Source of the DNA: Pelagomonas calceolata | Taxonomy: Eukaryota; Sar; Pelagophyceae; Pelagomonadales; Pelagomonadaceae | Direction: 5' to 3' | DNA: 64,000 nucleotides | Assembly: GCA_918797485.1 (NCBI GenBank) | Contig: CAKKNE010000004.1 | Span: 4,960,001 to 5,024,000, forward strand | Shown here: positions 7,052 to 64,000 of the stretch, one piece after another | Position numbering within the stretch: the stretch's first letter is position 1 | Layout of the letters: the number at the start of each line of letters is the position of its first letter | Translations under genes and position numbers: made by a program | The notes under the pieces: generated by a model | What the model saw: only the letters and a program-made list of their open reading frames with translations | The model's database searches: none | Told to the model about the DNA's origin: nothing

Positions 7052-10000
7052 ATGAAGCAATTCCAGCCGCTGGCTCCTTCCAGCACGAGACGCCCGCCGC
7101 TGCGGCCGCGGCAGTCGTCGGACACCGGCACCAAGAAGTTCCGGCCGCTCGTCGCGCGGAGCTCGACGCCGCCGCGGCCACCGGGCGCGCGCGTCGGCGC
7201 CGTCGCGGCGGTCCGCGAACTCGCCCGGACCGGAGCCGTGCCCCAGCCGCTGCGCCCGCGCCCGGGCTTCGCGGTCCCGCCGGCGCCGATCGCGGAGAGC
7301 GCCGAGCTGCCGCCGCCGCCCGCGGCGGAGGACGACGTGCCCTCGCCCGTACCCCCGCCGCGGAAGAAGCGCCGCGGCGCGTTCAAGCTCGCAATGGCGC
7401 GGCGGCCGGGCGCGCCGGCGCCGAGCGAGGACGCCGCACGCGGCAGCGCGGTGCACGCGACGCTGACGCAAGACGGCGACGACGGGGCGGAGGACGACGT
7501 GCCCTCGCCCGTACCCCCGCCGCGGAAGAAGCGCCGCGGCGCGCTCAAGCTCGCAATGGCGCGGCGGCCGGGCGCGCCGGCGCCGAGCGAGGGCCCCCGC
7601 TACCTGCCGCACGAGCCCCTCGTGCTCTGGGCGCCGGGCGCGGAGAGCCCGAAAAACGCCGCCCCGACGCGGCGGGCGCTGTTCCCCGGGGCGGCGCCGC
7701 CGGCGCCGGCGGGGCCCGTGCGCGTGCCGCCGCTCGTCGCCCAGTTCCTGCGCCCGCACCAGCGCGAGGGCGTGCGGTTCCTCTACGACTGCGTCGCGGG
7801 CCTGCGCGAGTACCACCCGGGCTTTCAAGGATACGGCGCCGTCCTCGCGGACGACATGGGCCTCGGGAAGACGCTCCAGACCGTGGCGCTCGTCTACGCG
7901 CTCCTCCGGCACGGCGCGGTCCCGCCCGCGACCGAGCCGTTCCGGCGCGTCGTCGTGGCGTGCCCCTGCTCCCTCGTGGCGAACTGGAAGGCCGAGTTCG
8001 ACAAGTGGATCAACGGCCGCGCGGCGACGCTCCGCGAGCGCGTGACCGTCAAGGCCGTCGACGCGGACCCCTCCAAAGCGATCGCGGCCTTCGGCGCGGG
8101 CTCGCGGCCCTTCCAGGTGCTCGTCATCTCCTACGAGTCGCTCGCGGCGCACGCGTCGGGCCTCGGCCCGGCGGCGTGCGACCTCCTCGTCTGCGACGAG
8201 GCCCAGCGCCTCAAGGGCCGGAAGACGAAGACCGCCCGGGCCCTCGGCGCCCTCCGGACCAAACGACGCGTCCTCCTCACGGGCACGCCCCTCCAGAACG
8301 ACCTCGAGGAGTTCTACGCGCTCGCCGACTTCGCGAACCCGGGGGTCCTGGGCCCGCCCGAGGCCTTCCGGCGGGGCTTCGCGCGGCCCATCGCCGCGGG
8401 GCTGGCCCGGGGCGCGGATCCCGACGAAGTCGCGCTCCGCGAGCGAAAACAGGCGGTCCTCGCCGAGGTCGCGACGCGGTTCCTCCTCCGCCGCGAGAAC
8501 CGCCTGAACGCGGCGCACCTGCCGCGCAAGCTCGTGCAGGTCGTCGTCTGCCGCGCGACGGCGGCGCAGCGCGCGGCCTACGGTGCCGTGCTCGCGGACA
8601 AGCGGCTGCGGCACGCGCTCCGGGGCAAGCAGGCGGACGTGCTCGCGTCGATCGGCAAGCTGCAGAAGATCTGCAACCACCCCTGCGCGCGCCCGCGTTG
8701 TATTTGTGTCCGCGTTTGATTTTTTTCCGACGCAGGCCTGCTCGACTCGGACGGCGACGCCGAGGGCGTCATGGCGGCCGTGGCGTCGGCGGGCCGCTTC
8801 ACGGCGGAGCGCCAGTCCGCCAAGCTCCACGTCCTGTTCCGGCTGTTGCGGGGACCCGCGCGTAAATTATGCCGCGATGATCGCGCGGAACGCTGCCCCG
8901 CGCAGGCGGGAGCTCCGGACGACCACGGACGAGCGGTGCGTCGTCGTCGCGTCGCAGACGCAGTCCCTGGCCCTGGTGGCGCGGCTGTGCGTCCGCGAGG
9001 GCTGGCCCTGGTGCCTGCTGGACGGCCGCACGCCGTCCAAGGAGCGCCAGAAGCTCGCGGACGGCTTCAACGACCCGGCGCGCCGGGACCCGGGTGGACA
9101 TCAATGTCGGAGCGACGTCGTCCCCGCGACCGCGTCGGCTCGATGGCGTAAAGGGTGATGTCCACGCAGGCCGGGACCACTTCTGCTTCCTGCTGTCGTC
9201 GACGGCGGGCGGCTGCGGCCTGAACCTGATCGGCGGGAGCCGCCTCGTCCTCTTCGACTCGTCGCGCGGCGGCGTCGGCGGTCGCCGCCGTCGTGCCGAC
9301 GCCCGCGCGCGCGCAGGTCCTGGAACCCGGCCGTGGACAAGCAGGCGGCCGCGCGGTGCTGGCGCGACGGCAACGCGCGGCCCTGCTACACCTACCGCCT
9401 CCTCACGGCGGGGACGATCGAGGAGAAGATCTACCAGCGCCAGCTCGCGAAGGAGGGCCTCGCGGCCGTCGTCGAGGACCGGGCCCAGAGCAACGCCTTC
9501 GACGCGTCGGAGCTCCGGGACCTCTTCGGCGACGTCGCCGCGCTCGACGCGGCGTCGGACACGCACCGCTCCCTGGGCTGCGCCTGCGCGGCGGCGTCCG
9601 CGGCGCCCGCGCGCTCGGCCGCGGCGGAGCGCCGGGCCCGCGCGCTGCGCGAGGGCGCCGTCGGCGCGGCCGCGGCGCGCGCCTGCCGGGCGTTCCTCGC
9701 GGGCCAGGTGGCCGAGGCGCAGGTGCCGCCGCCGGCCGCCGACGACGCGGCGGCGGCCGCGCACGCGGCCGACGCGGCGGCCCTCGCGGCGGCGCTGCGC
9801 CGCGTCGCCGCCGCGGTCGGCGCCGACGGGGGGCCCGCCACGCTCGCCCAGGTCCGCCGCGCGGCCGAGCAGCCCTTCGCGGACCTGCGCAAGGCGGGCC
9901 GCGCCGGCGCGGTCCTCGCGCCGGCCCTGGGCCGCCTCGACCGGGCGTGGCGCGCGCTCGTGCCGGCGCTCCAGGACCTCGTCGCCGAGGACCTGCCCCC

Positions 10001-10247: not shown

Positions 10248-10402
10248 GATGCGCGCACCAAGACCAAGACCCAAGACTTTCCTTTCCGTTCCTTTCCTTC
10301 CCCCGAGATTAAGCTCGACACGACGTTCTCTCTCTACTACCGCGCCTGACTTGTGGCACGGACTTGTGCCTCCTCGGCGCCTTGCCCACATTTACTCTTT
10401 CT

Positions 10403-12638: not shown

Positions 12639-14855
12639 ATGTCCGAGGCCCAGCCGACGAGTAACATCACCTACGAGGCGACGCTGAACGCGGCGGCGAG
12701 CGCGTCGCGGTTCCCGGCCGGCGCTTTCCTCGACTACGCGGGGCTCAAGAAGATCCTGGAAGCGCTCGCGGAGATGTACGCGACGGGCGACCGGGCGGCC
12801 GAGGGCCTCGCGTACGCGTCGCTCGCCACGACGGGCCGCGACGCCGCCGCGGCCGTCAAACGGGCCCCGAGCTCCTTCCAGGTGTCCTCCCACGAAGCCT
12901 TCCTAGAAAAGCTCGACGGCGAGCTGGCCAAGTGCGACGACTTCGCCCACCGCGAAGTCGTGAAGGTCAAGCGCGAACTCGCGGAGCTCGAGTCCGGGGG
13001 CTCGCGACCGCGGTCCGGCTCCCTGGACGGCGACCCCGAGGAGGTGGAGGGGTGGAGGGTCGACGCCGTCGGCCAGCACTTCCTCGAGGTGGAGAAGTAC
13101 GTCAACGTCAACGTGACCGCGGTCCGCAAGATGCTCCGGAAGCACGACGCCGTGCTCCCGCAGCGGCCGATCGCCGCCTTCTACACCGCGCGCATGCACG
13201 ACATGCGCTGGGTGCAGACGGATTATTCGTCCGTGCTCGTGCGCCTCTCGCGCCTCTACGAAAGCAAGACGCAGGCGGCACCGCCCGCGACGGACTGGGG
13301 CGGCGTGACGGCCTTCGTCCGCGCCACTACCAAGTACTGGGTTCGGAGCGAGGACCTGTCGGCCGCTGTGTGGAAATCAACCAATGAGTTACTATCAGAG
13401 TTAGGTTCCGACGGGGACAACATCGCGTCGATGGCGTGGGCGCCCGAAATTTGATTTCCACGCAGGTCGGCCGTCAAGCTCGAGATCGGCAAGCACCTCC
13501 CCGTGCTCCTCTGCGGCGGCAAGGGCGAGGGCATCATGCCGGACTCGCAGCTCGTGAACTCCGTCTACCTCGACTCGCCGGCGCTCGAGCTGTACCACGG
13601 GCGGCTCAACAAGACGCCGGGCGCCGTGGCGTTACGGCTCCGGTGGTACGGCACGGGCGAGCCGACGCTGGTGTTCGTCGAGCGCAAGACGCACCGCGAC
13701 TCTTGGACTGGCGACGGCTCCGTCAAGGAGCGCTTCGTCGTGACGCCCGACGAGGTCCTGCCCCTGCTCCGGGGCGAGTTCGACCCGCGGGCGCCGCGCA
13801 AGAAGCCCTACGCGCCGCACGAGCTGGCCCTCTGCGACGAAGTCCAGGGCCTGATCGCGCGCAAGCACCTCGTCCCCACGATCCGGAGCCAGTGCCACCG
13901 CGTCGCCTACCAGCTCGCGCACTCCAACAGCGTGCGCTGTTCCATCGACACGAACCTGACGCTGGTGAACGAGATCCAGAAGGCCGAGTTCGACCCCCTC
14001 GACGACCACACGCGCAAGGAGCCGACGCTCCTGCGCTGGTACAGGGACGCCACGAAAGGCATCCCCGCGCACGAGATCACCCGCTTCCCCTTCGCGGTGC
14101 TCGAGCTCAAGCTCGCGCTCGCGGAGGGCGAGGACCAGCCGGAGTGGACCAAGCCGCTCGTCGACTCCCTGGAACTGGCACCGGTCAACAAGTTTTCGAA
14201 GTTCATACACGCGTGCGCCACGCTCCTGCCGGACGAGGTCCAGGCCATGCCCTACTGGATCGACGACCCGGCCCTGCGCGACTCGATCAAGGCGACGAAC
14301 TCGACGCTGCTCAAGGCCGAGGACCAGGTCGGCTACACACAGACAGAGGCAGGACGCATCGAGGCGTGGACGAACCCGTCGCAGCAGTGGGCGCGGCCCG
14401 ACCTCCTCGGCCCGACGCGCCAGGTGCCACAGAGAGAAACGTGCTTCGGCCGCGACACGGACGTGCGGGGCGGCATGCAGAAGCCCCTCGTGCGCCAGAA
14501 GCTGGAACCGAAGCTCATCTTCGCGACGGAGAGGACGTTCGTCCACTGGCTTCACGCTTCGGTCGTGTTCCTCACCTTCGGCGCCGGCGCCATGGCCGTC
14601 GCCGACGGCGCGGCAGGCACGGCGGCCGAGCGCTCGCGGGCTTGGGTTGTCGCAGTCGCATTATCCGTGGGCTCCATCGCGATCAACATATTCGCGCTCT
14701 ACAACTACAAGTGGCGCCTCGGCCGCATCCGGTCGCGGGAGCCCGTCGAATGGGGCGACCCGCGCGGGCCGGCCGTGCTCGGCTCCATACTCATCGCACT
14801 CCTGTCGCTGAGCCTTGTCCTCAACACTAGGCGCCTCATGGCGGGGGAGATCTAG
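12639..14855 (+). CDS. VTC4: SPX-VTC polyphosphate polymerase (VTC4-like)
   Basis: Exons 12639-13357 and 13466-14855, 702 aa. The N-terminal ~250 residues are an SPX inositol-pyrophosphate sensor. The middle is a VTC triphosphate-tunnel domain with RLRWYG, VERKTHRDSW, SVKERF, PTIRSQCHR and VLELKLAL, the basic and acidic residues that line the yeast Vtc4 tunnel. The last ~130 residues carry three membrane segments (DUF202-like). It is expected to make polyphosphate from ATP and move it into a vacuole or acidocalcisome, gated by phosphate status. The intron is a 100-bp introner; removal gives SEDL-SAVKLEIGKHLPVLLC. Start chosen at the first ATG preceding the SPX domain. Confidence 0.93.
13358..13465 (+). 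mobile_element. introner in SPX-VTC gene (GT-AG)
   Basis: Element 13366-13465, 100 bp, perfect duplication GTCGGCCG at 13358-13365 and 13466-13473. Ends CTGTGTGGAAATCAA and TTGATTTCCACGCAG. Belongs to a second subfamily with CCCGAAAT before the 3' end. Phase 2. Confidence 0.95.
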
Positions 14856-22610: not shown

Positions 22611-25060
22611 ATGCGCATTTTAGCATTGCACGGCTCGGCCCAGACGTCCACACTCTTCGAGCAGCGGCTAGGACCGCTCATCAAGCGCCTTGGTGCCAGG
22701 CAGCACCAGATTACGTGCATCGACGCGCCGCATGCGCTGCCGCTGCGCGACGGCCAGGAAACGTCGCTGGGCTGGTGGCGCGAGGACGGCACGGGCCTCG
22801 AGGAGTCGCTTGACGTCGTCGACGCGGCCTGGCGCGCCGGACGCTACGACGCGCTGATCGGCTTTTCCTCAGGAGGCGCCTGCGCGTTCGCGGTGGCCAA
22901 TCGCCTGCCAGGCCTCAAGGCGCTGATCATTGCCGGCGCGCCGCGGCGGACCGAGGCCGCGCCGCCGCCCTGCTCGACGCTCCTGGTCGCGGGCCGCAAC
23001 GACAAGCTGGTCCCGCGCGACGAGACGCTCGCGCTCGCGCCCGGCGCGCAAACACACGTCCACGAACTGGGCCACAGCCTGCCGTGCCGCGCGCGAGACG
23101 TCGACGTGTACGTGTCGTTCCTGGAACGCGCGGTCCGCGGAGACGAACACGCGGAGACGGCCGCGGCCCGCGATGAGGAGCTCGAGGCCCTGGAGGCGAT
23201 ATTTTCGGACGACTTCCAGCGGGACCGCACGCGTGTCAGGCTCGACCGAGGCCCCTTCCCCGGCGACATCTACCTGGCGTTCGAGATGCGCGGCAGTTAC
23301 CCGGCGGCGGGCGGCGCGCTGCGGCTGACGGTCGTGTCCGATGCGCTGTCGCTCGCCGAGCTGCCGCAGCGCGCGTCACGGTCGATCGCGCGCGCGGCGG
23401 CGGCGGCCGTGAAGGACGACCTGGAGGCGGGCGAGCCCTGCGTCATGTCCGCGGTTCAGGCTGCAAACGATTACATCGCCGACTACGACCCGGAGGCGGA
23501 CGACGAGCCTGCCGCGGGGGACGACGAAGACGCCGCGACGGCGTCGGACAATGACGAGGAGAATGGCGAGGAGGGCGTCGACGCTGCCATTTCGTCGGCC
23601 GAGATATCGGCCTATCGCGCGGCCGCGAAGGAGGTACTGCGGCGGCGGGAGGAGGCGGCAACGACCGTGGCGCCGCCGTCCAAGCACCGCGGCGAATTCG
23701 AGGTGGTCGTCGGCGTCGTCGGCAAGCCCTCGGCGGGCAAGAGCACCTTCTTCAACGCCGTCACGCGCGCGACGGGCGCCCTCGCCGCCAAGGTCGCCGC
23801 CTATCCCTTCACGACCATCGACCCGAACGTGCGCGAGGGCTTGTACGGAGTCCTCGACCCGGATCCGGCCCTTGCGCTCGGACGGCCCCTCTCGGCCTGC
23901 CCGCCGCACGGCCGCGACGCGCAGGGCCGGAGGCTGCTGCCAGTGCTCCTCAAGGACGTGGCCGGGCTCGTGCCGGGCGCCTACGCGGGCAAGGGCAAGG
24001 GCAATAGATTCCTCAACGACTTGTGCGACGCCGACGCGCTGGTCTACGTCTGTGTGGAAATCAAGCAGTGCACCGATGGCGTGGAGGTCGACGCGACGAT
24101 TCAGTAGGCGCCGTGAAATGTTGATTTTCTTCACAGGTCCATGTGGTAGACGCCTCGGCGGAGACCGACGCGGGTGGCGCGGCCATCAATTCCGAAGACG
24201 CGGCCTCGGATGCGCTGGCCTTCGAGATCTCGTGGGTGCGCGAGGAGCTCCACCGGTGGATCGCCGGCAACGTCGCGAGCAAGTGGCGCTCGGTCGTGCG
24301 GCTGGCGCGCCTCGACCGCGACGGGATGCTCGCGCTCGATCGTCTTCTCGACCTCTTCAACGGCTATCGCGCCTCGAACGCGACCGCGCGCCGCGCGCTC
24401 GAAGTCGCGGGCCTTGAGAAGGAGCGAAACATCAGCGGCTGGGGCAAGGATCAGCTGCACCGCCTCGTCGCCGCTTTCCTGGAGGTGCGGTTCCCGACGG
24501 TCGTCGCACTTAATAAATGCGATAGGCCGTCGGCAAAGCAGCGGGTGACCGAGCTGCTCGCCGACGGCGCTGCCGGAGATGATTTGGTGCCGTGCTGCGC
24601 CCGCGTCGAGGCGGCGCTCGTCGTGGCGCGCGCGAACGGTTCTCTCGCCTACGAGGACGGCGCGGGCGCGTTCAATGGCGACGGTCCGGCGGGTGCGGCC
24701 GACTACCTGACGGAATGGGGCACCACTGGAGTCCTCGACGCCATCTCGCGCGCCGTCGCCGGCGCCAGGCCCGTCCACGCCTACCCGGTCGCCGACCTCG
24801 GGTCGCTCCGGGGCGCTCTCTCGCCAGGGCCGCTCGCGACTTGCCTCGCGTTCCGGCGCGGGGCGACCGTCGAGGACGTCTTCATCGCGCTCAAGCGCCG
24901 CGGCGGCGGCGGCGACTTCGTCCGAGCCGACGCCCTGAGCGCGGACGGGTCGAAGCGGCGCCAGGCAAAGCCCAAGGACCCGCTCGGCGCCGACACCGCG
25001 GTGCTCAAGGTGTCGTCGAACCGGAAGGCCGCGTGGCAGCAGCAGAGTGGTCCTGCTTGA
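22611..25060 (+). CDS. FSH1 hydrolase - RWD - YchF/OBG GTPase triple fusion
   Basis: Exons 22611-24041 and 24137-25060, 784 aa. Residues 1-185 match FSH1-type serine hydrolases: HGSAQ, nucleophile motif GFSSGGA, Asp in NDKLVP, His in GHSLP. Residues ~190-300 form an RWD domain (EELEALEAIFSDDF, FPGDIYLAFEM). An acidic linker follows. From ~375 there is an OBG/YchF-type GTPase: G1 GKPSAGKST, switch PFTTIDPN, G3 DVAGLVPGAYAGKGKGN, G4 NKCD, ending in a TGS-like region (TVEDVFIALKRR). Start is the first ATG; the upstream GTG is less likely. I know of RWD domains on translation factors such as GCN2 and of YchF on ribosomes, but not this three-way combination. The exon join reads DADAL-VHVVDAS, typical of YchF. 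Confidence 0.85.
24042..24136 (+). mobile_element. introner in FSH1-RWD-YchF gene (GT-AG)
   Basis: Element 24050-24136, 87 bp, ends CTGTGTGGAAATCAA and TTGATTTTCTTCACAG. Target copies GTCTACGT / GTCCATGT differ at two places, so it is older. Phase 0. Confidence 0.9.
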
Positions 25061-26665: not shown

Positions 26666-27787
<1,122 letters not shown>

Positions 27788-27817
27788 TAAGGACTACTAG
27801 AAACTGATACAACTTCG

Positions 27818-35540: not shown

Positions 35541-36085
35541 GTTTACTCGGGCGCTCGATGCGACCGGGAGTCCTGCAACGGCATCGTCGACGTCACGATC
35601 GGCGGCGCGTCGTCTGGCACTATACGCTCGCACCCCGCCGGCGCGTCGTCTTACGCGCCCTACTCGCGGTGTGGCTGGCGCGTTGACCTAGGCGGCGTCG
35701 ACGACAACGTCGACGACCGCGACGACCAAAATCGCGTCGTGGTGCTGACGTTCGTAAGGGCGGGACCGAGCTGCCGCTCCTGGCGGGGTACTGTGTGGAA
35801 ATCAAAAATTTACGGAGCGTTCTGCCGCATGCTCGTCGAGAATGGACTTAGTGAAGATTGCACCCGACGCACTGTTTGATTTCCACACAGGCGGGGTACG
35901 CGCCGGGCACGAACGCGACGCACCACCTCGCGATCCAGAAGAAGGCCAATTCGAACCTCGCCGTCGCCTTCGGCCGCACGTCTTCCGCGTTGCTCGACTC
36001 GGCGAGGAGGCCGCGGCCGGACCCCGAGGACGGGTCGAACGGCTCGAGCCGCACGACGCCGACGCCCCGACAACTAGATCCCTGA
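35541..36085 (+). CDS. CUB-like fragment, gene model uncertain
   Basis: From 35541 the frame reads VYSGARCDRES...GTIRSHPAGASSYAPYSRCGWRV, which fits the first half of a CUB domain (two Cys, GTI, CxW). After the introner a different frame reads GTELPLLAGYAPGTNATHHL...NLAVAFGRTSSALLDS, which fits the second half, and stops at 36085. The two halves are out of frame between about 35690 and 35783, so there is either a missed intron, a frameshift, or gene decay. No start codon is certain. Probably an extracellular adhesion or receptor fragment. Confidence 0.35.
35783..35890 (+). mobile_element. introner in CUB-like fragment (GC-AG)
   Basis: Element 35791-35890, 100 bp, perfect ends, perfect duplication GCGGGGTA. 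Excision restores ELPLL-AGYAPGTN. In minus sense the target would start TA, so the GC reading on the plus strand is the workable one. Confidence 0.9.
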
Positions 36086-49284: not shown

Positions 49285-49299
49285 CGGCGAGACCTGCCG

Positions 49300-49481: not shown

Positions 49482-51081
49482 ATGCTGCTGGCACTCCTGC
49501 TCCTTCTCGCCGCGACAACAGCAGCCCTAGAGCAAGACGGCAAGGACTACGACCTCTACACGACCGCCTCCGCCCTGCGCAACCTCGCCGGCGGCTTCGC
49601 GAGCGAGGTGGAGGTGACCGCGGACGGGCGCGTCAAGAAATTGATCTTTGACGGCACGGCGGACCTGTTGGCTGAGGCGCGGGCGCTGGTCAACGCGCTG
49701 GGCGTCACCCAGGGCGAGGGGTGCGAGGACCGAGATTGTGCCGCAAAAGAGCTGGTGAACATGATGCGCGGGACCGTCGACGCGAGGCGGCGGACGGCCG
49801 GCGAGGCGCTCGACCTCGCGCAGCTGCGCATCGCGACCACGACGCGCGGACATTTCCACGTGGTGCACACGCGGGACTCGTTCGTGGGCGCGTCGCTGGA
49901 GGCCGCGGGCACCTTCGAGGAACCCGCGCTGCGCCTGATGCTCGCGGTCGTCCGGCCCGGCGACGTCGTCGTGGACGCGGGGGCGAATCTGGGCGCGCAC
50001 CTGGTGCCGCTCGCGGTGGCGGTCGCAGACGGTCGACACGCGCCGGTCAGCGACGCGGGCCGGCTGGTCGCCTTCGAGCCGCAGGCGATTCCGCACGCGC
50101 AGCTCCACGCGAGTCTACTCATGCTGGGCTCGGCGCGCATCCCGAGCGCCGTCGTCGCGTACCGCGCCGCCGCCGGCGCGAAAGACGGGGGAGTCGCGTC
50201 AATCCCGACGCTGGACGATCGCGGCGCGCCGCAGAACTTTGCCCAACTCTCGCTGGTCGAGGGGGCGTTCCACGGGCGGCCCGACGCGGACGAGTACGAG
50301 AACTATACCGTCGCCCGTCGGCGCGGAGACCAAAAGCTGTCGTGGCGGCACCCGACGCAGCGGTCGATGTCCACGCAGGTTCCCGTCCGGTCGATAGATT
50401 CCGTGCTGAAGGAAATGTCCCTCGCTTGCCCATCGTTGATAAAGGTGGACGTCGAGGGCCAAGAGGACGACGCGCTGCGGGGCGCCGCGAAGACCATCAA
50501 AAAATGCCGGCCTGTCTTGTACGTCGAGAACTGTGTGGAAATCAACCAGTGCGTCGGGTGCACCCGACAATTCTTCACTAAGTCATTTCTCGGCGATGAC
50601 GTGGCCGCGCTGGCTCCGTCGAGCGGCGAGGAACCGGCATCGCCACGCCATCGAGCAGGCGTCGCGTCGATGGCGTGGAGGACGACGCGGCGAAGGAGGA
50701 CGAACGCGCCGTAAAATTTTGATTTCCACACAGGTCGAGAACAACCACTACCCCGCGGCCGGCATCGCGACGAGGCATTGCCGGGGTGCTGGCTACGTCG
50801 CCTTCCACCACGCGTTCTCCTACGCCGCGCTCTTCCCCAGACCTCGCTCAAGAGAGGAGGCGGCGTACCACGCGGACGTCGCGGACCGGTCGGACTCGCG
50901 GAACCTGCTGTGCGTCGCGTCGGCCGAGCGCCTCGCCGGGCTGCCGGAGACCATTTTCCTTGAGGTCGTGCCCGGCTGGGAATCCGCCGCGGCAGCGCTC
51001 CCGCCGGACCTGCTCGCGAGGCTGACGCGGCCCGTCGACGAGGCGGTGTTGTACCCGAACCGGGGGGCGCCGTGGGAGTAG
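49482..51081 (+). CDS. secretory FkbM-type methyltransferase
   Basis: Exons 49482-50309, 50379-50522 and 50734-51081, giving 439 aa if the middle relic is spliced (462 aa if retained). Signal peptide MLLALLLLLAATTAALEQ. SAM-binding motif VVVDAGANLGAHLVPLA, then VAFEPQAIPHAQLHASL, SLVEGAFHG, VPVRSIDSVL and LIKVDVEGQEDDALRGA are the FkbM order. FkbM enzymes usually O-methylate sugars or small hydroxyl compounds; the leader suggests a Golgi glycan target. The start is the first ATG, which opens the leader; the frame upstream begins at TTG. The last exon (VENNHYPAAGIATRHCRGAGYVAFHH) completes the fold. Confidence 0.85.
50310..50378 (+). mobile_element. 60-bp introner relic in FkbM gene
   Basis: Element 50319-50378 with ends CGGCGCGGAGACCAAA and CGGTCGATGTCCACGCAG: the family repeats with substitutions almost all toward G or C. 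A GT at 50310 and AG at 50378 give a 69-nt, in-frame, stop-free intron. It can therefore be spliced (ENYT-VPVRSID) or kept as 23 residues. Confidence 0.75.
50523..50733 (+). mobile_element. full-length 203-bp introner, FkbM gene (GT-AG)
   Basis: Element 50531-50733, perfect 15-bp ends, perfect duplication GTCGAGAA at 50523-50530 and 50734-50741. Very similar throughout to the Nudix-gene copy, so recent. Join reads VLY-VENNHYPAAG. Confidence 0.98.
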
Positions 51082-51604: not shown

Positions 51605-53086
51605 ATGGCCCAGGAAGGGATGGCCCAGGGCACGCGAAAAAAAGTGACGCATAGCACGATCCTCGCCTTGCCGAATACGGCGTGGGGGGTCGTCGTTGGT
51701 CTCGGCGGCAACGCCATTTTGTGGAAAGGTATCGCGACGCACGGTTTCACGCGCCACGTTCTCGGGCGAGGCGTTCAATGGCTATTTTTTAGCGTGGGCG
51801 GCGTTCTGTGCTATGCATAAATCAAATTCTTGCGGCGCGTTTCCTGCTGAATCATGGCCTCCACGCCAGGCGTGGCGGTGTGGGTCCTACACCACTCGAT
51901 TCAGTCATCAAGGTCGCGTTGTCGCCGAGAAAGGACTTCGTGAAGAATTTTTCCGGCACCCGACTCACTGTTTGATTGCGCACAGGTTCTGTGGATTACC
52001 CTCGCACTCCTCACCCTGGCGAAATTCGTTACCAACTTTGTGTTCGTCGTCCGCGAGTGGCGGGATCCAGTCCGCGTTTATTTCTTCAATATGATGAACG
52101 TGTCGCTGTTCATGTACGCAATAGCCGTGCCGGCGGCGCTCGAAGACGACTGGCGCGCCGCGCGGACAGCCGCCTTTTGTATAGCTAGCGTCATGCAGAT
52201 CGGCTTCAACCTCGAGGTGTATCGCCGGTGGCTGTTCTGCAAGGGCGCGTCGTTGGCCAGCGCCGAGCCGCAGTACATGTTGTCGACGGTTGGTTGGGCC
52301 CTCGGTTGTTTGCTAGCGCAGGACTTGGACCTCGACCGGAGATGGCGCATCGGCGTAGCCGAGCTCATGATTGGGTGCGCCGTTTGTTTTGTGTGGAAAT
52401 CAACCAGTGAGCCTCCACGCCACCGAGCCGACGCGGTCACGGGGACAAAGTCGCGTCGATGGCGTGGCCTCCACGCCATCGAGCAGACGCAGCTACGGAG
52501 ACAGCGTCGCGTCGATGGCGTGGGGCGCCCGAAATTTGAGATCCCACAGGTCGTGTTTTATTCGTTTGCTGCCATATCGGTGATCCAGGGCCTGGCCGAA
52601 AAACCCCATCTCAAAGGCGAGCCGGTGTTATTCCTACTCATCGCGCCGCCGTCCGTAGCGGCCACGTGCTTCGCCAATTTTCATGGCGGGCGGTTCAGAG
52701 GGGTCCCCGTGAGCGTGCTCGGATACGCGCTGGTGATGCTCTCGGTGTTGCTCCTCAGCGGTCCGAAGCTCGCTGGCGAGCCAAAACTCCTGGGAAGCTA
52801 CTGGGCTTATGTGTTCCCCGTCGCCGCGCTCGGATCTGCTTGTATTAACTACGCCGCCTACGAGAACTCGCCCGAGGCGAAGGCCGTGGCGTGGGTCGTG
52901 TTCATTATAGCCGAGACCTTGCTTATTCTCGTCTTCGTACGCACTATGTACCACTGGGCGCAGGTCGCGCGGGGCCGGGCGCTTTGGCGCGACCCGCTCG
53001 CGCCGGCATCCGCCTGGGTCGACGAAAAAACGGGGGGGCGCGTCGGCCATTGCGAAGGGGACGACGCAGCAATTACTCCAGCATAG
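51605..53086 (+). CDS. SLAC1/TehA-family anion channel
   Basis: Exons 51605-51802, 51986-52381 and 52550-53086, 376 aa. Ten hydrophobic helices are expected; visible ones include GVVVGLGGNAILWKGI, VLWITLALLTLAKFVTNFVFVV, MNVSLFMYAIAVPAAL and FAAISVIQGL. The segment EWRDPVRVYFFNMMNVSL matches the conserved part of bacterial TehA and plant SLAC1 (DPVRVNFF). It should conduct anions or export organic acids such as malate. Both introners sit between helices. Start is the ATG at 51605; six codons on there is a second ATG. Composition is less GC-rich than neighbours. Confidence 0.85.
51803..51985 (+). mobile_element. introner, anion channel intron 1 (GT-AG)
   Basis: Element 51811-51985, 175 bp, 5' end altered (CTATGCATAAATCAAA), 3' end TTGATTGCGCACAG; perfect duplication GTTCTGTG at 51803-51810 and 51986-51993. 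Join VGG-VLWITL, phase 0. Confidence 0.93.
52382..52549 (+). mobile_element. introner, anion channel intron 2 (GT-AG)
   Basis: Element 52389-52549, 161 bp, starts TTGTGTGGAAATCAACC and ends TTGAGATCCCACAG. Flanks GTTTGTT / GTCGTGTT are related. Carries two CCACGCCA..TCGA...TCGATGGCGTGG palindromes, i.e. an internal duplication. The 168-nt intron has no in-frame stop, so retention would add 56 residues. Confidence 0.85.
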
Positions 53087-54397: not shown

Positions 54398-56050
54398 ATG
54401 GCCCGGCGCTCGAGCCTCGCGGCGGCCTTAGTGCTCGCCGTCGTAGCACTCCTCGCGCCCGCGGAGGCCAAGGGCAGCAAGGGCGTCCGCCGCAACTCGG
54501 CGCTGCACGGCAAGCCGCGCAAGAAGGGACGACGGCCGCCCCCGCGGAAGAAGAAGCGCCGCGAGTACGACTACGACGATGACGACGACGACGACGACGA
54601 CTTCGGCGGCGGCTCGCGGCAGATGACGTACTACAAGCCGCGGCGCAAGCCGACGGGCCCGTCGGTGCTCCAGCGCGCGCAGGCCATGGCCAAGGAGGCA
54701 AGCGCGCGGGGCCTGGAGATGTCCAAGGTCGCCGCCTCGCGCGCCAAGGACCTCGCGGCCGAGGCCGCCGTCAAGGGCCAGGAGGCCTCGCGGCTCGCCA
54801 AGGCCTACTACAGCTCCGAGTACGAGAAGTTCCTCCTGACGGCGACGTGGCCGTCGGACCAGCGCGTCTCGCCGCAGCTCGCGAAGCGGCTCGTCGAGAG
54901 CGTCGCGCGCTTCCCCGCGCGGCCGCACGCGCTGCCCGACGACGACCCGTACCGCGTGACGCTGCGCAAGCTCTGGAAGAAGATGATCGAGCGCGACTGG
55001 CGGACCACGCAAAAAGCTTTGTACTTGCTCCACGCCCTGTCGCGGTCGACGCCCACCAAGAACGCGCGCGCGCTCTCGCGCACGCTCAAGTCCATGGTCG
55101 GCGACGCCGACCCGAAGACGGGCCGCAAGTACTTCTCGCGGCGGGAGCTCGTGGCGCTGCGGGGCGACGACGGCGCCGAGCGCGGCGCCGTCGTCGACGC
55201 GTACGCCGGGTTCGTGCTGCGGCGCGCGCTGCTCTTCGCGGGCAAGTTCGAGGACGTCGCCGCGCCGAAGAAGAAGAAGAAGCCGGCCGCCGTCGAGGAG
55301 TGCCCCGCCGACGTCATTAACGAGGCGACGCTGAAGCGGGCGCAGAACGCGCTGCTCGTGACGGAGCACGCGCTGACGTTCCTGCGCGCGGCGCTCGACG
55401 ACCCGGACCCGCGGCGCGCGCACCTCGTCGTGGTGTCGTGCGTCGAGCTGGTGGTGGCCGACCTCGTGGACGGCTGGGCCGCGGCGCGCGACGCCTGCGG
55501 CGCGCTCGCGGCGGCGCTCGCGGCGGGCGCGGCCGGCGACGACGCCGCCGCCGCCGCCGCCGCGCTCGCCAAGTACGCGGCCCTCAAGCCGCGCGCCAAG
55601 AAGGCGGCCAAGGCGTCGCTGAAGACGCTGCGCTTCTTCGACCTGCGCGTGGCCGCGACCATCGGGGACACGGACGTCGACGCGGCCATCGACGCCGCGC
55701 TCGCGGCGCGCGGCGGCGCCGCGGCCGCCGCGGCCGACGCGGCGGCCGCGGCGTCGGCTGACGACGGCGAGGCCGAGGCCGAGGACGACGAGGACGACGA
55801 GGCGGACGACGAGGACGACGACGACGACGAGGAGGAGGACGACGACGACGAGGCGCGGACGCGGCGTCGAGTCGCCTTCTAACCACGCCATCGATGCGTG
55901 GCCTAGACGCGGACAGAACCACGACACGCGACCCCTGCGCAGGACGATGAGGATGACGAGGACGACGACGAGGACGACGACGAGGACGACGAGGACGACG
56001 AGGACGACGAGGACGAGGACGACGAGGACGACGAGGACGACGAGGACTAG
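54398..56050 (+). CDS. ENTH/ANTH-domain protein with signal peptide and acidic tail
   Basis: ATG at 54398. Unspliced it ends at 55882 (494 aa); removing a 72-nt GT-AG intron (55871-55942) extends it to 56050 with a pure Asp/Glu tail. MARRSSLAAALVLAVVALLAPAEA is a strong signal peptide, followed by a basic patch and a run of nine Asp. Residues ~130-310 resemble ENTH/ANTH: YYSSEYEKFLLTATWPSD, DPYRVTLRKLWKKMIERDWRTTQKALYLLHAL. ENTH/ANTH domains normally bind phosphoinositides and clathrin adaptors in the cytosol, so a signal peptide is unexpected; delivery to a plastid-surrounding compartment is one possibility. No catalytic function expected. Confidence 0.7.
55871..55942 (+). mobile_element. 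possible introner relic at 3' end of ANTH gene
   Basis: The 72-nt GT-AG segment contains CCACGCCATCGATGCGTGG, like the interior palindrome of intact introners, and ends CTGCGCAG. No convincing target duplication. It contains the in-frame TAA of the short product, so splicing would swap the C-terminus. Confidence 0.4.
55943..56050 (+). repeat. GAC/GAG acidic microsatellite
   Basis: About 105 bp of GAC, GAG and GAT codons that would encode only Asp and Glu if joined to the ANTH gene. Confidence 0.85.
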
Positions 56051-56246: not shown

Positions 56247-58262
56247 TTAGTCGTCCCCCTCAGGCGCGGCGGAAAACAGGAGGGCGAGCGCGATCACGAG
56301 GTACAGCACGTAGAGCCCCACGCTGAAGAAGCCGAACTGCTTCGGGACGCGGCCCGCCAGCAGGAGCCCCGCGCCGACGACGCAGACGCAGTTCGCGATG
56401 ATCATGCCGAGGCCGACGCTGATGCCGTCGTTCGACGCGACGCGCATGCGCCGCTCCTGGAAGTTGTCCAGGCGGATGAGGAAACCCACGCCCAGCGTCA
56501 CCAGGAGGTTGAACACGGGCCCGGCGAAGCACGCCGTGAGGGCCTGCGCGTAAATCAACCCGTGAGTGCCGGCGTCGCCGTCGACGGGACGCGTCGCGAC
56601 GGTTTGACGCATGCACCGGTGGGGGCCATGTTCGCGAGGCCCTTGCGCGCCATGGCGACGTTCGTGAAGTAGTCGCCGACGGAGTTGCCCCAGGCCAGCA
56701 GGGTCAGGCCCAGGATCTCGGGCTTGATCCCCGACAGCGCGGCGAAGAACTCCAGCGCCGCCGCGAGCTCGCCGGCGAAGACGTCGATCCACGTCGCCGC
56801 GACGAAGAAGCCCATCAGGGCGAAGATCGTGGCCGCCGCGAAGGGCAGGTCGTCGCTGCCGCGCGTGCTGTGCCACGCCGCCGCCGCGCACGCGGCGCCG
56901 ACGACCGCCGCGACGTAGAAGAGGGGGACGACGCCGCCGACGAAGACGTTCCGGGCGCCGCGCGCGTGGGCGTAGCAGCAGAGCCACACGGGCGCGCCGA
57001 GCAGGGACAGCGCGAAGGGCGCCCGCGCGTAGCGGTCCCCGGCCGTCAGCGGCACGGTGGCCGCCCGCGCGGCGGTGAACGGCAGCTCGAGGACGTTCAG
57101 GACCTTCTGCGGGAGCGGGTCCTCCAGCGCCGCGAGCACGTTCGCCCGGGCCCGCGCCACGACGTCGAGGGCGAAGAGGCCCTCCAGGGCCTCCTCCGAG
57201 GCGGGCGCCGCGGGCGCCTCCAGCAGCGCCGACCGCAGCGGCGCGACGTCGTCGCCCTCGATGACGACCGAGCGCGCGGGCGTCGCGTCGGGCCCGTCGT
57301 CGTCGTCCGCCTGCGGGGACGACCGGTCGCGCGCGCGCCCCGCCGCCGCGTCGGCCCGGCGGGACGCGGGCCCGCGCCCAGAAGGGGTTGCGCGCGCCCG
57401 TCGGCGTCGAGGTCTTTTCCTCGTCCGCCGACGAGCCGACCTGGGGCCGCCGCCGCCGCTGGCGGACGTCGTGGATCAGCGTGAGCATCATCTCCACGGC
57501 GTCGTCGGGCTCGGTCGCGCCGCTCCGCCGGGCGAGGTCGTAGGGGCCGCCCGGCCGGCGGTGGTAGAGGTCCGCCGCGAGCACGACCAGCACGAAGAGG
57601 ACGTAGAGCGCGAGCAGCGTCGCCGCGCCCGCGCGGGTGACGCGGCCGCCCGCCAGCACGCCCCAGACGACCGCCGACGCGGCGCCGTAGGCCGTCACGT
57701 CCCGGAGCAGCGCGCCCTTCGCCTTGGCGCCGTCGGCGATGACCATCACCATGCCGGCGACGCACGTCGTGACGAACATGCCGGCCCCCGTGAGCGCGCC
57801 CAGGGCGGTGTCCAGGCCGGCCCGCTCGCCGACGGCGTCGCTCGCCACGAGGTGCACGTTCGACGACACGTCCGGCGCGCCGTTGCCCAGCGCCAGGAGC
57901 GTGACGCCGGCGAAGCGCGGCGGCAGGCCCGCGTCCTCGGACAGCTGCTCGAGCGCCGGGCTGAAGTAGTCGTCCGCCGTGCTCCCGAGCAGCACGAACA
58001 GCATCGCGAGCCACGCGAGGCACAGCGCCGCGAAGCAGAACCGCGAGGCCGGCGAGGTCGCGCAAAAGTACGTCTTGGCGTAGTGGTTGCCGCAGGCGTC
58101 GCTCTTCGCTATCTGGCACTGCTCGTACTTGTCGATGGCGCGGCCGCCCCGTTCCCCCGGGCCGACCAGCCGCGCGTCGCGGCAGGGGCCCGAGAGCGCG
58201 CCTTCGTCGGCCGCGGCCGCTGCGGCCAGGACGACGACGAGGGCCAAAATCTTTTTTAGCAT
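56247..58262 (-). CDS. Na+/Ca2+ exchanger of the NCKX6/NCLX (CaCA) type
   Basis: Exons (minus) 58262-57366, 57310-56627 and 56543-56247, 625 aa. Signal peptide MLKKILALVVVLAAAAAA. The first alpha repeat TLLALGNGAPDVSSNVHLVASD and the second LTLLAWGNSVGDYFTNVAMARKG are the ion-binding signatures; each is flanked by about five helices and separated by a large acidic/basic loop (~290-390). This is the SLC8B1/NCLX and plant CCX class, exchanging Ca2+ for Na+ (or K+) at endomembranes or mitochondria. Both joins keep frame and fit the family (FWARAR-ADDDDGPD and LANM-ALTACFAGP). Confidence 0.9.
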   Translation of the reverse strand: MLKKILALVVVLAAAAAADEGALSGPCRDARLVGPGERGGRAIDKYEQCQIAKSDACGNHYAKTYFCATSPASRFCFAALCLAWLAMLFVLLGSTADDYFSPALEQLSEDAGLPPRFAGVTLLALGNGAPDVSSNVHLVASDAVGERAGLDTALGALTGAGMFVTTCVAGMVMVIADGAKAKGALLRDVTAYGAASAVVWGVLAGGRVTRAGAATLLALYVLFVLVVLAADLYHRRPGGPYDLARRSGATEPDDAVEMMLTLIHDVRQRRRRPQVGSSADEEKTSTPTGARNPFWARARVPPGRRGGGARARPVVPAGGRRRRARRDARALGRHRGRRRRAAAVGAAGGARGARLGGGPGGPLRPRRRGAGPGERARGAGGPAPAEGPERPRAAVHRRAGGHRAADGRGPLRAGALRAVPARRARVALLLRPRARRPERLRRRRRPPLLRRGGRRRRVRGGGVAQHARQRRPALRGGHDLRPDGLLRRGDVDRRLRRRARGGAGVLRRAVGDQARDPGPDPAGLGQLRRRLLHERRHGAQGPREHGPHRCMRQTVATRPVDGDAGTHGLIYAQALTACFAGPVFNLLVTLGVGFLIRLDNFQERRMRVASNDGISVGLGMIIANCVCVVGAGLLLAGRVPKQFGFFSVGLYVLYLVIALALLFSAAPEGDD
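56544..56626 (-). mobile_element. introner, exchanger intron 2 (GC-AG)
   Basis: Element 56544-56618, 75 bp; on the plus strand starts CTGCGCGTAAATCAACC. Target copies GCCCCCAC / GCCCTCAC (gene sense) differ once. Only a GC donor restores ANM-ALTACF. Confidence 0.85.
57311..57365 (-). other. exchanger intron 1, 55 nt
   Basis: GTCCCGCC ... GTCCCCGCAG in gene sense, phase 0, needed to join the two frames. No introner ends or target duplication visible. Confidence 0.75.
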
Positions 58263-59175: not shown

Positions 59176-60838
59176 TCACTCGTCGCGACTACTCGGCGCG
59201 GCGACCGCGGTCCCCGCCCGAAACAGCGCCTCGACCTCGTCCAGCCGCAGGCCCTTCGTCTCCGGCACCGCGGCCGCCACGAACGCTGCGCCGACCGCGC
59301 ACACGAGCGCGAAGCCGAAGAACGCGCCGGCCGCGCCGATGCGGGCCACGAGTCCCGCGAAGGTCTCCGTCACCAGGAACGAACAGGACCAGTTCAGGAC
59401 CGTCGCCAGCGCGGCCGCGGCGCCGCGCGCGCGCGTCGGCAGGAGCTCGGGCATCAGGAGCCACGGCACGGGCCCGAGGCCCAGCGAGAACGCCGCGATG
59501 TAGAGGAAGAGCGCGACCAGCGCGACGAACGGCGGGGGCTCGAGGAGGAAGTGGAGCGCCAGGAGCGCCGCGGCCGCGGCCATGCCGCAGAGCGACCCCG
59601 CGAGCAGGGGCCGCCGGCCGAGGCGGTCCATCAGCACGAGGGCCAGGCCCGTCGCCAGGACCTGGACCGTCATCACGAGGACGCCGCCCAGGTCCCCGTT
59701 CGCCATGCCCGCCGACGCCAGGAGGGGCCCGCTGTAGAAGATGACCGCGTTGATGCCGCTGAACTGCTGGAAGAGCATGACGCACAGCACGATCGCCAGC
59801 GGCCGGCGGACGCCGGCGTCGCCGCCGCCGCACAGCGCCGCGAGGACGACGCGCACGCCGAGCCCGTCGTCGGCGCCGCCCGTCGAGCGCACGAGCGCGT
59901 CGAGGTCCCGCGCGGCGCGCGCGTCGTCGCCGCCGCGCAGCGTCGTGAGCGCGCGCGCGGCGGCCGCGCGGCGCCGCTTGGCCACGAGCCACGCTGGGCT
60001 TTCAGGAAGAAAGGCCGCCGCGCCCACGACGCCGCCGCCGAGGACGGCCCCGACGAGCGCGAGGGAGCGCCACGCGCCGCGCGCCGCGCCGCGCCGCGCG
60101 GGGCCGCACGCGTACTCCAGCGATTCGTGCGGCGCGAGCGCCCCGGCGACGTAGGCCAGGAGGATCCCGACGGTCACCGCGAGCTGCGTGACGGACCCGA
60201 GCGCGCCGCGGAGCGCCGCCGGCGCCGTCTCGGCGACGTAGACGGGCACCGCGACGGACGACGCGCCGACGCCGGCGCCCAGCAGCACGCGCGCGCCGAC
60301 GAGGGTCCGCGGGCCGTGGGCCCTGGCCGTCGCCGTCCACGCCTGCGTGGAACTCAAACCTCGGGCGCCCCACGCATCCTCGTAAGAGCCTCCTGCTCGA
60401 CGGCGTGGAGAAAAACCGAACTCACGGCTTGCTTTCCGCACGGGTCCACGCGACGACGTAGAGGGGCCCGGCCACGTACAGCAGCGCGCCCTTGCGGCCC
60501 ACGTTGTCCACGAGGCGCCCGCCCGCGAGCGCGCCGACCGCCGCCCCGATGTTGATGACCGCGCTCCACAGCGACGCCGCGGCGGCCGAGGCGCCGTTCG
60601 CGTCGCAGCGGACGTGCTTGAACTGGCGCCCGAGCATGCCCGGCAGCGCCGGCGAGGAGAACCCGAGCGAGTAGCCGAACACGAGCGCGCCGACCGCCGC
60701 CCCGGCGGCGCACAGGATGGCGACGGTGTTGTCCTCTCTTTCTCTCTCTGGCGGCGCCACGTCCTCCAGCAGCGACGCCTCCAGCGACGCGGCGTCGTCG
60801 TCGTCCAGCGCGCACGAAGGGCCCGCGGGGAGCTTCAT
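59176..60838 (-). CDS. MFS sugar transporter (SLC2/GLUT-like)
   Basis: Exons (minus) 60838-60452 and 60342-59176, 517 aa. Twelve helices with sugar-porter signatures in order: GRLVDNVGRKGALLY, VPVYVAETAPAALRG (PESPAWL follows), QQFSGINAVIFYSG, and the closing VPETKGLRLDEVEALF. Substrates are probably hexoses or polyols across plasma or vacuolar membrane with H+. N-terminal ~35 residues are acidic with a dileucine-like patch. The introner join YVV-AWTATARAHGPRTLVGARVLL is exact with a GC donor. Nothing suggests loss of function. Confidence 0.93.
60343..60451 (-). mobile_element. introner in sugar transporter (GC-AG)
   Basis: Element 60343-60443, 101 bp, plus-strand ends CTGCGTGGAACTCAAA and TTGCTTTCCGCACGG; perfect duplication GTCCACGC (GCGTGGAC in gene sense). 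The far-end CAG has become CGG, harmless because only the other end serves as acceptor. Second subfamily. Confidence 0.95.
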
Positions 60839-61113
60839 TGGTAGTTGTCGAAATACTCAGCCAGTCACACTGAGGTGCAGGCCTAAAATTGAATTTGAGT
60901 TTTCACTTCCAGTTCCTGTGGCAGTTGCCAGTGGCAGTCCCCAGTGGGAATTGCCAGTGCCTGCTTTGGCAATGAGTAGTGTGATAGACATACTAGCGCC
61001 GGGGGGCCTGCAATACTCTTTCGAGACGTAGTGCAACATACCTCCCACGCTTGGCAGCACCGCTCTCGCTCGCACAGCCCACCACGTGCGCGCGCGCGCG
61101 GAACGCAGCTTCT

Positions 61114-64000
61114 ATGGAGTCCAAAACGCTCCGCAGCCACCGCGTGATCGGTGAGGTCGCCGACGGCACGCCGCAGACCTGCGCCTTCTACGATTTGGGG
61201 GGCGTCGGCTACTGCGCCGCCCGGGTCGGCGGCGACGCGTTTCAAGTCATGGCGCTCGACGGCCTGACCGTCCAGAGCGCGTCGCCGCGGCTGGGCAGGA
61301 ACATAAGGGCCATCGGCGCCCAGGGCGAGTGGACGTACTGCGCGATCGACGACGAGGTCTGGTGTTTCCTCCGGGCGCGGTTCGTAGGCCTCGCCGCCGG
61401 GGCGCCGGCGGCCGTCGACCGCTTCGAGCTGTGCGCAAATCAACCGGTGCGTCGGGCGCACCCGGCAATTCTTCCCTAAGTCATTTCTCGGCGACGACGC
61501 GGCCGTCCTGGCTTGGTCGATCGGCGAGGAACCGGCATCGCCACGCCGTCGAGCAGGCGTCGCGTCGATGGCGTGGAGGACGACGCGACGATGCAGCGCG
61601 AACGCGCCGTAAAATCTTGATTTCCACACAGGCTTCGAGACGGTCGGCGGCCTCCTGCTCGGCGCCGGCGCGGGCTTCGTCCAGGGCTGGGCCCGGGGCG
61701 ACGAGGGCGCCGCGGCGCGGCGCCGCGTGCCGGACAAGGTCCTGTGCTTCGACGTCGACCTGGCGGGCGTCGTCCTGTGCCACCCGCCGACGTACGTGAA
61801 CAAGGTCCTGCTCGGGGCGCGCGACGGGCGGCTGGAGCTCTGGAACGTGCGCTCGGGGAAGCGCGTGCACGCCTACGCGTCGATCGCGCGCGGCCCCGGC
61901 ATCGCGCACGTCGCGGCGTCGGGCGCGCTGGACGTCGTGGCCGTCGCGCGCGGCACGGGCCGGATCCAGCTCCTCGACGCGCGGAGGGACGCGGTCCTGT
62001 TCGAGCTCGACCACGGCGCCGCCGCCGCGGCGTGCTGCTTCTGCCGCGGCGGCGAGCCGCGGGGCGCGGGCGACGCGCGGCCGCCCGTCCTCGTCGCGGC
62101 CGGCGGCGACCAGCTCCGGGTCTGGGACCTGGAGACGCGCGCGCTCCTCCACGTCGAGAAGCGCGTCGGCGGCGTCGCGGCGCTCCACGCCGGCGGCCTC
62201 GCCGGGGGGCCGACGGGCGCCGACGCCGTCGTCGTCACGTCCGTCGGGGCGGACGCGAAGCAGTGGGCGCTGGACGCGTCGGACGGCGCGCCGCGGCTCT
62301 GCCGGCGGCGCGACGGGCTCGGCGGCGCGCCCGCGGTGGTGCGCTGGTACGGCCCGCCCGAGAGCGGCGGCGCGGTCGCGGGCGCGTCCGGCGACGCGTA
62401 CGGGTCGCTGCAGCTGCTCGTCGCCGCGCCCCGGGACCGGAGCCTGCGGTGCCTGCACGCCGTGCGCGACCGGCTGAACGGCGAGCTCTCCCAGCGGGGC
62501 GCCGCGGACGCGCGCGCGAAGCGGCTCCGGCTCGCGGACCCGAAGGCGCTCCGCCTGCCGCCCGTCACGTGCGTCGCGGCGGGCGACGCGAAGGACGGGA
62601 GCTTCCCCAACGTCGTCACGTGCCACCGCGGCGAGCGCGTCGCGCGCGTGTGGTCGCTGGCGGAGCGGCGCCTCGCGGACCACTGCCTCACGCAGCCGCA
62701 CTGGGGCGGGCGCGGGCGCGACGACCCGGGGCAGGTGGCCCGGCGGGACTCGGCGACGGCGTGCGACCTGAGCGCGTGCGGGAACTTCGCGCTGATCGGC
62801 CACGAGGACGGCTACGTGCGCAAGTACAACGTCCAGTCGGGCGAGGCGCGCGGCACGTACCCCGCGTCGCTCGAGGCCGCGCGGCGCGTCGCGGACCGCG
62901 CCGCGTCGGTCGCGGTGCCCGGCGCGGTGGCCCGGGCGGCGCGCGCCATCGCGCGGGTCACGCGCAAGGGCGAGGAGATCGCGCTCCGGGACGACGGCGC
63001 GGACCCGCGGACGGCCGGGGCCGCCGGCGCGCGCGCCTTCGCGCGGGGCAAGGGGCGGCAGCGGAAGCACCGGGGCGGCGTCGTGGGCGTCCACTGCGAC
63101 GCCGCGAACGCCTGGTGCGTGTCGTGCGGCGGCGACGCGGTCAAGTGGTGGTCCTTCGCGGACCACCGGGCGCGGGGGGCCCTGCGCGTCGACGCGGCGT
63201 GCGCGGTCACGGCCTTCGCGCGCGCGTCCGACCTCCTGGCCGTGGGCCTGGACGGCGGCGCCGTGCTGGTCCTGGACGCGCGGCCGCCCGACGCGGGCGG
63301 CGGCCGCGTCCTCCGGCGGCTCGGCACGCACGCCGGCCGGGCGGCGCGCGACCTGTCGTGGTCCGCGACCCGGCAGTCGCTCTACGCGGTCTGCGGGCGG
63401 GGCGCGCTCCACCGGTGGGACGTCGCGTCCGGCGCGTGCGTCGACCGCGTGGCGTTCGCCGAGGAGGCCGTCGCCGTCTCGGCGTCGCCGTCCGGCGAGT
63501 TCGTCGCGACGGCGCACGTGAGCGGCGCGCACGTCGCGCTCTGGACGGACAAGGCGGCCTACGGCCGCGTCGACGCCGCGCCGCTGGGCGAGGACGCGGC
63601 GCCCGCGCCCCTGCGGCCGCTCGCGCCGCGGGACCTGCTGGACGCGCGCGTGGACGTCGCGGCGGCGGCGGCCGACGACGCGGCGGCGATCACCCTGGAC
63701 GACGCGGCCCCCGCCGGCGCGGCGGCGGCGCCGCTCGCCGACGGCGTGCTCGCGGACGCGGCGCGGCGCGGCAGCATCCGGATGTCCGCGGACCCGGCGT
63801 CCTCGCGGGCGCGCATGGAGACGCTCTACGCCCTGGAAGCCGTCGCGGAGCGCAACCGGCCCGTCGCGCCGCCCAAGAAGCCCGAGGCCGCGCCCTTCTT
63901 CCTGCCGTCGGAGATGGACGCCCAGCGACGGGACGCCGCGCCGCCGCCGGCGCTGCCGCCGCCGCCGCCGGAGGACGACGCCTTCGCCGGCGACGACGGG
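61114..64000 (+). CDS. UTP21: UTP21/WDR36 small-subunit processome protein, 3' end beyond window
   Basis: Exons 61114-61420 and 61632 to the window end, 892 codons present. WD40 repeats begin with HRVIGEVADGTPQTCAF, then CHPPTYVNKVLLGARDGRLELWNVRSGKRVHAY, diagnostic of WDR36/Utp21, and later ATACDLSACGNFALIGHEDGYVRKYNVQSG, HRGGVVGVHCD and LSWSATRQSL-type repeats. Near the end PKKPEAAPFFLPSEMD leads into the C-terminal Utp21 domain, which lies outside. Two tandem propellers bind the U3 snoRNP in 18S rRNA processing. Intron removal (VDR-FETVGGLL) needs a GC donor, phase 1. Start is the first in-frame ATG. Confidence 0.93.
61421..61631 (+). mobile_element. full-length 203-bp introner, UTP21 gene (GC-AG)
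   Basis: Element 61429-61631, ends CTGTGCGCAAATCAACC and TTGATTTCCACACAG, perfect duplication GCTTCGAG. No GT is available at the target boundary. Confidence 0.97.

Follow-up and report, generated by a model that had tools for sequence, protein, structure and literature searches.

Why do short segments with nearly the same ends interrupt unrelated genes of Pelagomonas calceolata, and how could those genes tolerate them? The question is raised by the window, the whole stretch of 64,000 nucleotides that was analysed here, for which an earlier note had listed elements with common 15-bp inverted ends and had read them as introners, transposons that become introns on insertion. The window does contain a family of short, non-autonomous DNA transposons with inverted ends. 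The ends are CTGTGTGGAAATCAA, and the elements are mostly 60-206 bp long, with a full form of 203 bp and many shorter copies. Altogether, 29 sites in the window lie within 4 mismatches of the 15-bp ends, a few of them probably by chance, and at this threshold ends are located at the places where the earlier note had put its elements (Table 1).

Table 1. Predicted introner introns and relics in the window (positions are those of the window)
Interval	Strand	Predicted feature	Element, ends and target copies	Host gene	Reading frame
8685..8735	+	decayed relic, GC...AG intron of 51 bp		SNF2-like helicase, shared with 9082..9169	
8848..8905	+	decayed introner, GC...AG intron of 58 bp	target copies GCGGGGAC / GCGGGAGC, 2 mismatches	helicase of 9082..9169	
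9082..9169	+	introner intron	GCCGGGAC + 80-bp element; perfect duplication	SNF2-like helicase	unspliced reading stops within element
13358..13465	+	introner intron	GTCGGCCG + 100-bp element; perfect duplication	VTC4-like polyphosphate polymerase	
24042..24136	+	introner intron	GTCTACGT + 87-bp element (start 24050); right end decayed; duplication with 2 mismatches		807 codons after removal
27476..27572	+	introner intron	GTCGCGAA + 89-bp element; perfect duplication	ubiquitin fusion (tail)	continuous
28095..28295	-	decayed introner intron	element 28095-28287 + target copy; donor GC; GC...CACAG; end mismatches 2 and 1; duplication mismatches 3		
28616..28740	-	introner intron	117-bp element, ends perfect; donor GT; perfect duplication		continuous on - strand
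34070..34280	-	introner intron, 211 bp	full 203-bp element, ends perfect; donor GC; perfect duplication		empty site spanned by 409-codon frame; stop inside element when unspliced
35783..35890	+	introner	GCGGGGTA + 100-bp element, ends perfect; perfect duplication	weakly defined	flanks disagree on coding strand
42126..42336	+	introner intron	GTCGCGGA + 203-bp element; perfect duplication		continuous
50310..50378	+	decayed introner	right end 3 mismatches; donor position uncertain	FkbM methyltransferase	>400 codons kept with any of four candidate donors
50523..50733	+	introner intron	GTCGAGAA + 203-bp element, ends perfect; perfect duplication	FkbM methyltransferase	
51803..51985	+	introner intron	GTTCTGTG + 175-bp element, ends altered; perfect duplication	SLAC1-like channel	
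52382..52549	+	introner intron	left end 1 mismatch; duplication illegible	SLAC1-like gene of 51803..51985	382 codons after removal of both introns
55853..55942	+	doubtful relic (55871 in the earlier note)	nearest GC...AG segment only; ends illegible		
56544..56626	- (predicted)	decayed introner, weak	left end 3 mismatches; right end lost; duplication 1 mismatch		
60343..60451	-	introner intron	101-bp element; donor GC; perfect duplication	sugar transporter	
61421..61631	+	introner intron	GCTTCGAG + 203-bp element; perfect duplication	Utp21/WDR36-like	

Genome-wide searches covered an assembly of 32,445,274 bases in 8 contigs. A hunt for the 15-bp ends had been proposed as a check on the family, and its outcome is clear: at ≤1 mismatch the two ends occur 1261 + 1255 times, against 2 + 0 for a reversed-pattern control, and at ≤3 mismatches 2080 + 2057 times, against 150 + 143. 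Pairs with both ends exact and 188-218 bp apart number 166, with 0 in the control. Taking half of the net ends at ≤3 mismatches, we estimate that the genome holds about two thousand legible copies. Those of 203-bp length are closely alike, 20 of 21 having 92-99% identity to their own consensus, and the remaining copy is an outlier at 43%. Two patterns made of the end plus its neighbouring bases had 0 matches when searched against viral contigs.

The elements are flanked by duplicated target sequence. In the window, 12 end pairs have an 8-bp duplication with at most 1 mismatch, compared with 0, 0, 0, 0, 0 and 1 in six offset controls. Twelve perfect duplications had been claimed; the perfect pairs are real, but they number 11, the altered copy at 51811 included (element starts 9090, 13366, 27484, 28616, 34070, 35791, 42134, 50531, 51811, 60343 and 61429). 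The twelfth pair has 1 mismatch and links the relic at 8856 with the end of the element at 9090. Beyond the window, we used 100 short stretches of C1 and C2 around exact + strand ends, taken in the order of the search listing, so that this sample is not random. It contains 112 exact left ends, and 104 of these were given a partner end, picked blind to AG and to GT/GC; for the other 8 no partner was recognisable within 330 bp. The coding strand was assigned with a codon model that had long open frames as its training set, and it was clear for 96 of the 104 copies, the remaining 8 being dropped. Across the 96, the duplication is perfect in 48, has one mismatch in 27 and two to six mismatches in 21.

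It is in these duplications that a donor rule becomes visible. Each predicted intron consists of one target copy plus the element, with a GT or GC donor (GY) from the duplicated target and a CAG acceptor from the element end. On the independently assigned coding strand, the predicted intronic target copy starts with GT or GC in all 96 cases (69 GT and 27 GC, thus 28% GC donors), whereas the rate for 8-mers drawn at random from the fetched stretches is 17%, which supports the proposal that the intron equals one target copy plus the element. The exonic copy starts with GT or GC in 94 of the 96, and among duplications with 1-3 mismatches GY is kept in 43 of 43 in either copy; with GY kept nearly equally by both, copy decay does not single out the donor. 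Predicted introns are most often 211 bp long (17/96), and 30/96 fall at 205-215 bp; a 203-bp element plus an 8-bp target copy gives 211 bp and thus matches the peak in the published intron lengths (PMC9481584). By the codon model, 42, 18 and 36 predicted introns are in phases 0, 1 and 2, respectively. In the window, all 18 predicted introns (55871 left out) start with GT or GC and end with AG, but relic borders were picked with this rule in mind, so that a real test is provided only by copies whose ends and duplications are legible. For 8685..8735 we infer family membership, its ends being illegible.

The same pattern might come from plain MITEs that are never spliced, disrupt genes or lie in pseudogenes, and owe their GT or GC starts to a target preference of the transposase. 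The near-equal retention of GY in both target copies would suit such elements. So would the far end of the perfect duplications, where RC occurs in 15 of 48 compared with the 17% background (p = 0.02), a slight excess that hints at some palindromic preference. What a strand-blind preference cannot give is agreement with the gene: in all 41 copies that have a donor on one strand only and a continuous frame, the donor is on the coding strand.

The state of the host genes also bears on the choice between spliced introners and plain MITEs. We scored the best coding frame of each flank separately for 74 copies, drawn from the window, from C1 and, in one case, from C4. In 58 of them the frame carries on through the reconstructed empty site, compared with about 12 (roughly one in six) expected by chance. 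The classifier was right for 92.1% of 300-base pieces, an optimistic figure because these were pieces of its own training frames. The other 16 copies, among them those at 9090 and 35791 in the window, lack a continuous frame, and some of their flanks may represent short exons or the ends of genes. Ten window genes have a long frame at the joined empty site, and in 9 of these the unspliced reading meets a stop within the element; only the insert in the ubiquitin-fusion gene at 27476..27572 can be read without one. In the helicase gene, joint removal of 8685-8735, 8848-8905 and 9082-9169 turns an open frame of 555 codons into one of 987, with the SNF2-like sequence continuous and the stops gone. 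Past the helicase motif this frame is no longer protein-like, so a further intron probably lies there.

Protein domains run through the predicted junctions as well. A Pfam scan covered eight of the ten window proteins, whole or in pieces (all except 27484 and 34070), and in six of the eight the junction lies inside a domain match (9090, 13366, 50531, 51811, 60343 and 61429). Helicase_C passes through the junction of 9082..9169, and the VTC domain crosses that of 13358..13465, where the alignment to PDB 5iiq is ungapped. The FkbM match contains the junction of 50523..50733 and ends 7 residues further on, and the junctions at 51803..51985, 60343..60451 and 61421..61631 are spanned by SLAC1, Sugar_tr and beta-propeller (Utp21 propeller) matches, respectively. 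No Pfam domain was found in the proteins at 28616 and 42134, the other two of the eight scanned. Long frames and intact domains of this kind, together with the stops met in unspliced readings, argue against plain MITEs.

Some sites apparently survive in their original state. When the genome was searched with 16 joined empty sites, two uninterrupted partial matches were found, both on C5. One paralogue spans the junction of the window element at 13366 with 81% identity and runs straight through the predicted site; the other does the same, with 75% identity, at the junction of the first of two elements in the fetched stretch L006. By eye, the second L006 element is missing from this paralogue too, which brings the natural empty sites to three, and all three agree with the predicted pre-insertion sequence. 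The claim that splicing restores the gene as it was before insertion is thus upheld by frames, domain-spanning junctions and natural empty sites, with the splicing itself predicted.

Relative to the gene, 53 copies are inserted in one orientation and 43 in the opposite one (p = 0.36; 96 of 118 copies assigned). Both ends carry CACAG outwards, and thus an acceptor is offered in either orientation. Predicted introns of common sequence in many different genes could also reflect spread at the RNA level, in which spliced introns reverse-splice into other transcripts and go back to DNA, a mechanism suggested for fungal introners (PMC9860276). That route would predict a single orientation and no duplication. 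The 8-bp duplications, inverted ends and 53:43 orientation are instead marks of DNA transposition, and we give RNA-level spread almost no credence compared with DNA-borne introners.

If the elements are spliced in the predicted direction, only one of their two acceptors would be in use. Among C1/C2 ends that had played no part in picking the loci, all 47 sense 3' ends retain the AG, whereas 5 of 49 sense 5' ends have lost it, a borderline difference (p = 0.056). In 13 window copies of known strand, scored by eye, the losses are 0/13 and 6/13. Pooled, they come to 0/60 and 11/62 (p = 0.0006), and without two window copies whose partner had been chosen by its AG, to 0/58 and 10/60 (p = 0.0013). 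Retention of the AG at the sense 3' end is the trace to be expected if splicing in the predicted direction were under selection. Plain MITEs do not account for a sense acceptor that is kept while the AG of the other end decays, and with the coding-strand rule and the intact host genes they become a very improbable source of these segments. It is only the AG that differs: across the last five letters of the end, changes occur in 3/47 sense 3' and 7/49 sense 5' ends (p = 0.32). A branch point within the end (TTGAT) was also considered and is not supported; its A is altered in 4/47 sense 3' and 3/49 sense 5' ends, about equally, and hence shows no extra conservation.

So, are these transposons introners? 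We have little doubt that the elements are non-autonomous, cut-and-paste, MITE-like transposons that act as introners and are spliced out with one target copy, and the interpretation in the earlier note is sustained by donor strand, reading frame, domain junctions and empty sites together. Judged from the DNA, the segments that jumped in are very probably cut from the RNA as introns, and the genes keep working. The features by which introners are recognised are present here: many near-identical predicted introns at unrelated gene positions, inverted ends, a duplication of fixed length, splice sites that are co-opted or carried (donor 96/96, AG 47/47) and a reading frame restored on excision.

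The course of events might be as follows. A transposase would act on the 15-bp inverted ends, move the element and duplicate 8 bp of the target. Whichever way the element lands, the transcribed strand would close the insert with an acceptor AG, and the upstream target copy could serve as the donor provided that the duplicated 8 bp, read on the coding strand, start with GT or GC. The spliceosome would then take out exactly one target copy plus the element and restore the old mRNA. Insertions lacking a GT or GC donor would break the gene and presumably be lost by selection. In this scheme we infer the splicing itself, the transposase, and selection, rather than targeting, as the filter on sites.

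Which transposase might move the elements? Duplications of 8 bp are typical of hAT transposons. The genome gave 1 match in a search with the hAT dimer Pfam model, and at C4:4499549-4503199 lies a hAT transposon of 3651 bp with an open stretch of 721 codons, matching 14-bp ends CAGGGCAGCAGAAG and a perfect 8-bp duplication TTGCTCGC. Mobilisation of the introners by this transposon would fit the duplication length. However, its ends are unlike those of the introners, it is the only copy found in the genome, and within 4 kb of its open frame there is no introner end at ≤3 mismatches. Of the two marks of a hAT-derived MITE, the elements therefore have the 8-bp duplication and do not share ends with the hAT of the genome, which makes this transposon an improbable mover. 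Pfam searches of the genome for MULE gave 0 matches (the same search was positive in 3 control genomes), as did those for IS1595/Merlin (positive in 1 control genome) and for P-element RNase H and KDZ, these last two being weak absences, since neither search was positive in any control genome. Among the hAT, MULE, P, KDZ and IS1595/Merlin searches, none yielded a transposase carrying introner ends. Likewise, no end pair longer than 206 bp with a duplication at ≤1 mismatch was kept from 60 longer C1 stretches, most of which extend ~2 kb past the end, from the window or from the fetched stretch L002.

The full intron at 50523-50733 is predicted to fold as a hairpin (z = -4.5) that is closed by pairing of the 15-bp ends. 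One speculative elaboration, which we think rather unlikely, is that the end doubles as transposase site and acceptor on both strands, so that the intron would be ambidextrous, with a 15-bp terminal helix that draws the 3' splice site near to the co-opted donor, and that the mover belongs to a superfamily other than the usual makers of 8-bp duplications.

An introner mechanism was reportedly described by Huff, Zilberman and Roy in 2016 for Aureococcus anophagefferens, also of the Pelagophyceae, and for Micromonas pusilla. That introners are established in Aureococcus and Micromonas, as the earlier note held, agrees with what PMC9860276 and PMC10228655 say of them; the latter credits Huff et al. 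2016 with finding that, in the two genera, splice sites are co-opted and elements insert in either orientation, and Aureococcus elements are described as always having direct repeats and as having inverted ends of constant length (PMC7789003). As far as these accounts go, the P. calceolata elements resemble Aureococcus and Micromonas introners in being short non-autonomous DNA transposons with inverted ends and a target duplication, in co-opting splice sites, in inserting in both orientations and in leaving the mRNA unchanged after splicing, which here is predicted. Insertion in nucleosome linkers has also been reported for Aureococcus and Micromonas introners. Inverted repeats and fixed-length duplications occur in only some of the known introner families. 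Symbiodinium introners, according to the legend of Fig. 2B in PMC9860276, likewise bring their own 3' splice site and obtain the 5' splice site from the duplicated target, although the Symbiodinium example has 4-bp duplications and the P. calceolata family has 8 bp. In contrast, family 4 of Aureococcus sp. has both splice sites within the element and lengthens the mRNA by 12 bp (PMC9860276), unlike the P. calceolata family. Raised proportions of GC donors are common to the P. calceolata family and the introners of that paper, in which GC donors make up 0 to 50% by family.

The species itself had been flagged. For P. calceolata RCC100, a published assembly of 32.4 Mb comprises six nuclear contigs and one contig each for plastid and mitochondrion; its genes contain 0.45 introns on average, and intron lengths peak at ~210 bp, a peak that was likened to Aureococcus introners (PMC9481584). 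Among the literature searched, this is the only paper in which 'introner' occurs together with Pelagomonas calceolata or Pelagophyceae, and its introner-sized introns are almost certainly the elements described here. Its passage on introns reports the length peak and refers the reader to Supplementary Note 3. We have derived the ends, the duplications and the donor rule here, and these may be additional detail or may already stand in that Supplementary Note. With the mechanism already known and the species already flagged, the P. calceolata family is a well-supported further case of introners, and the result mostly confirms a mechanism published for a close relative. Nevertheless, the origin of new introns is a long-standing question, and this genome offers a clean case, with about two thousand copies, an exact donor rule, 28% GC donors and paralogues that keep the empty site. 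The system would permit direct tests of the interplay among insertion, splicing and selection.

Several observations concern the distribution and setting of the copies. In RCC100, contigs 1 and 5 share a nearly identical end duplication of 393 kb (PMC9481584), and in the corresponding C1/C5 end duplicates the introners asked about were present in both copies in 8 of 8 cases. The eight sites with near-identical counterparts at the start of C5 all lie within 362 kb of the beginning of C1; for one at 484 kb, C5 gave no match. The gene at 27476-27788 and upstream encodes a ubiquitin unit with a fused C-terminal tail of ~135 residues that contains cysteine; the introner interrupts this tail, which, by impression, is unlike the usual ribosomal proteins. 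Ends at ≤1 mismatch number 16 in the window, compared with ~5 per 64 kb from the genome mean, making the window about three times denser. In the fetched stretches L006, L016 and L026, several introners lie 70-400 bp apart, and the exons between them are very short.
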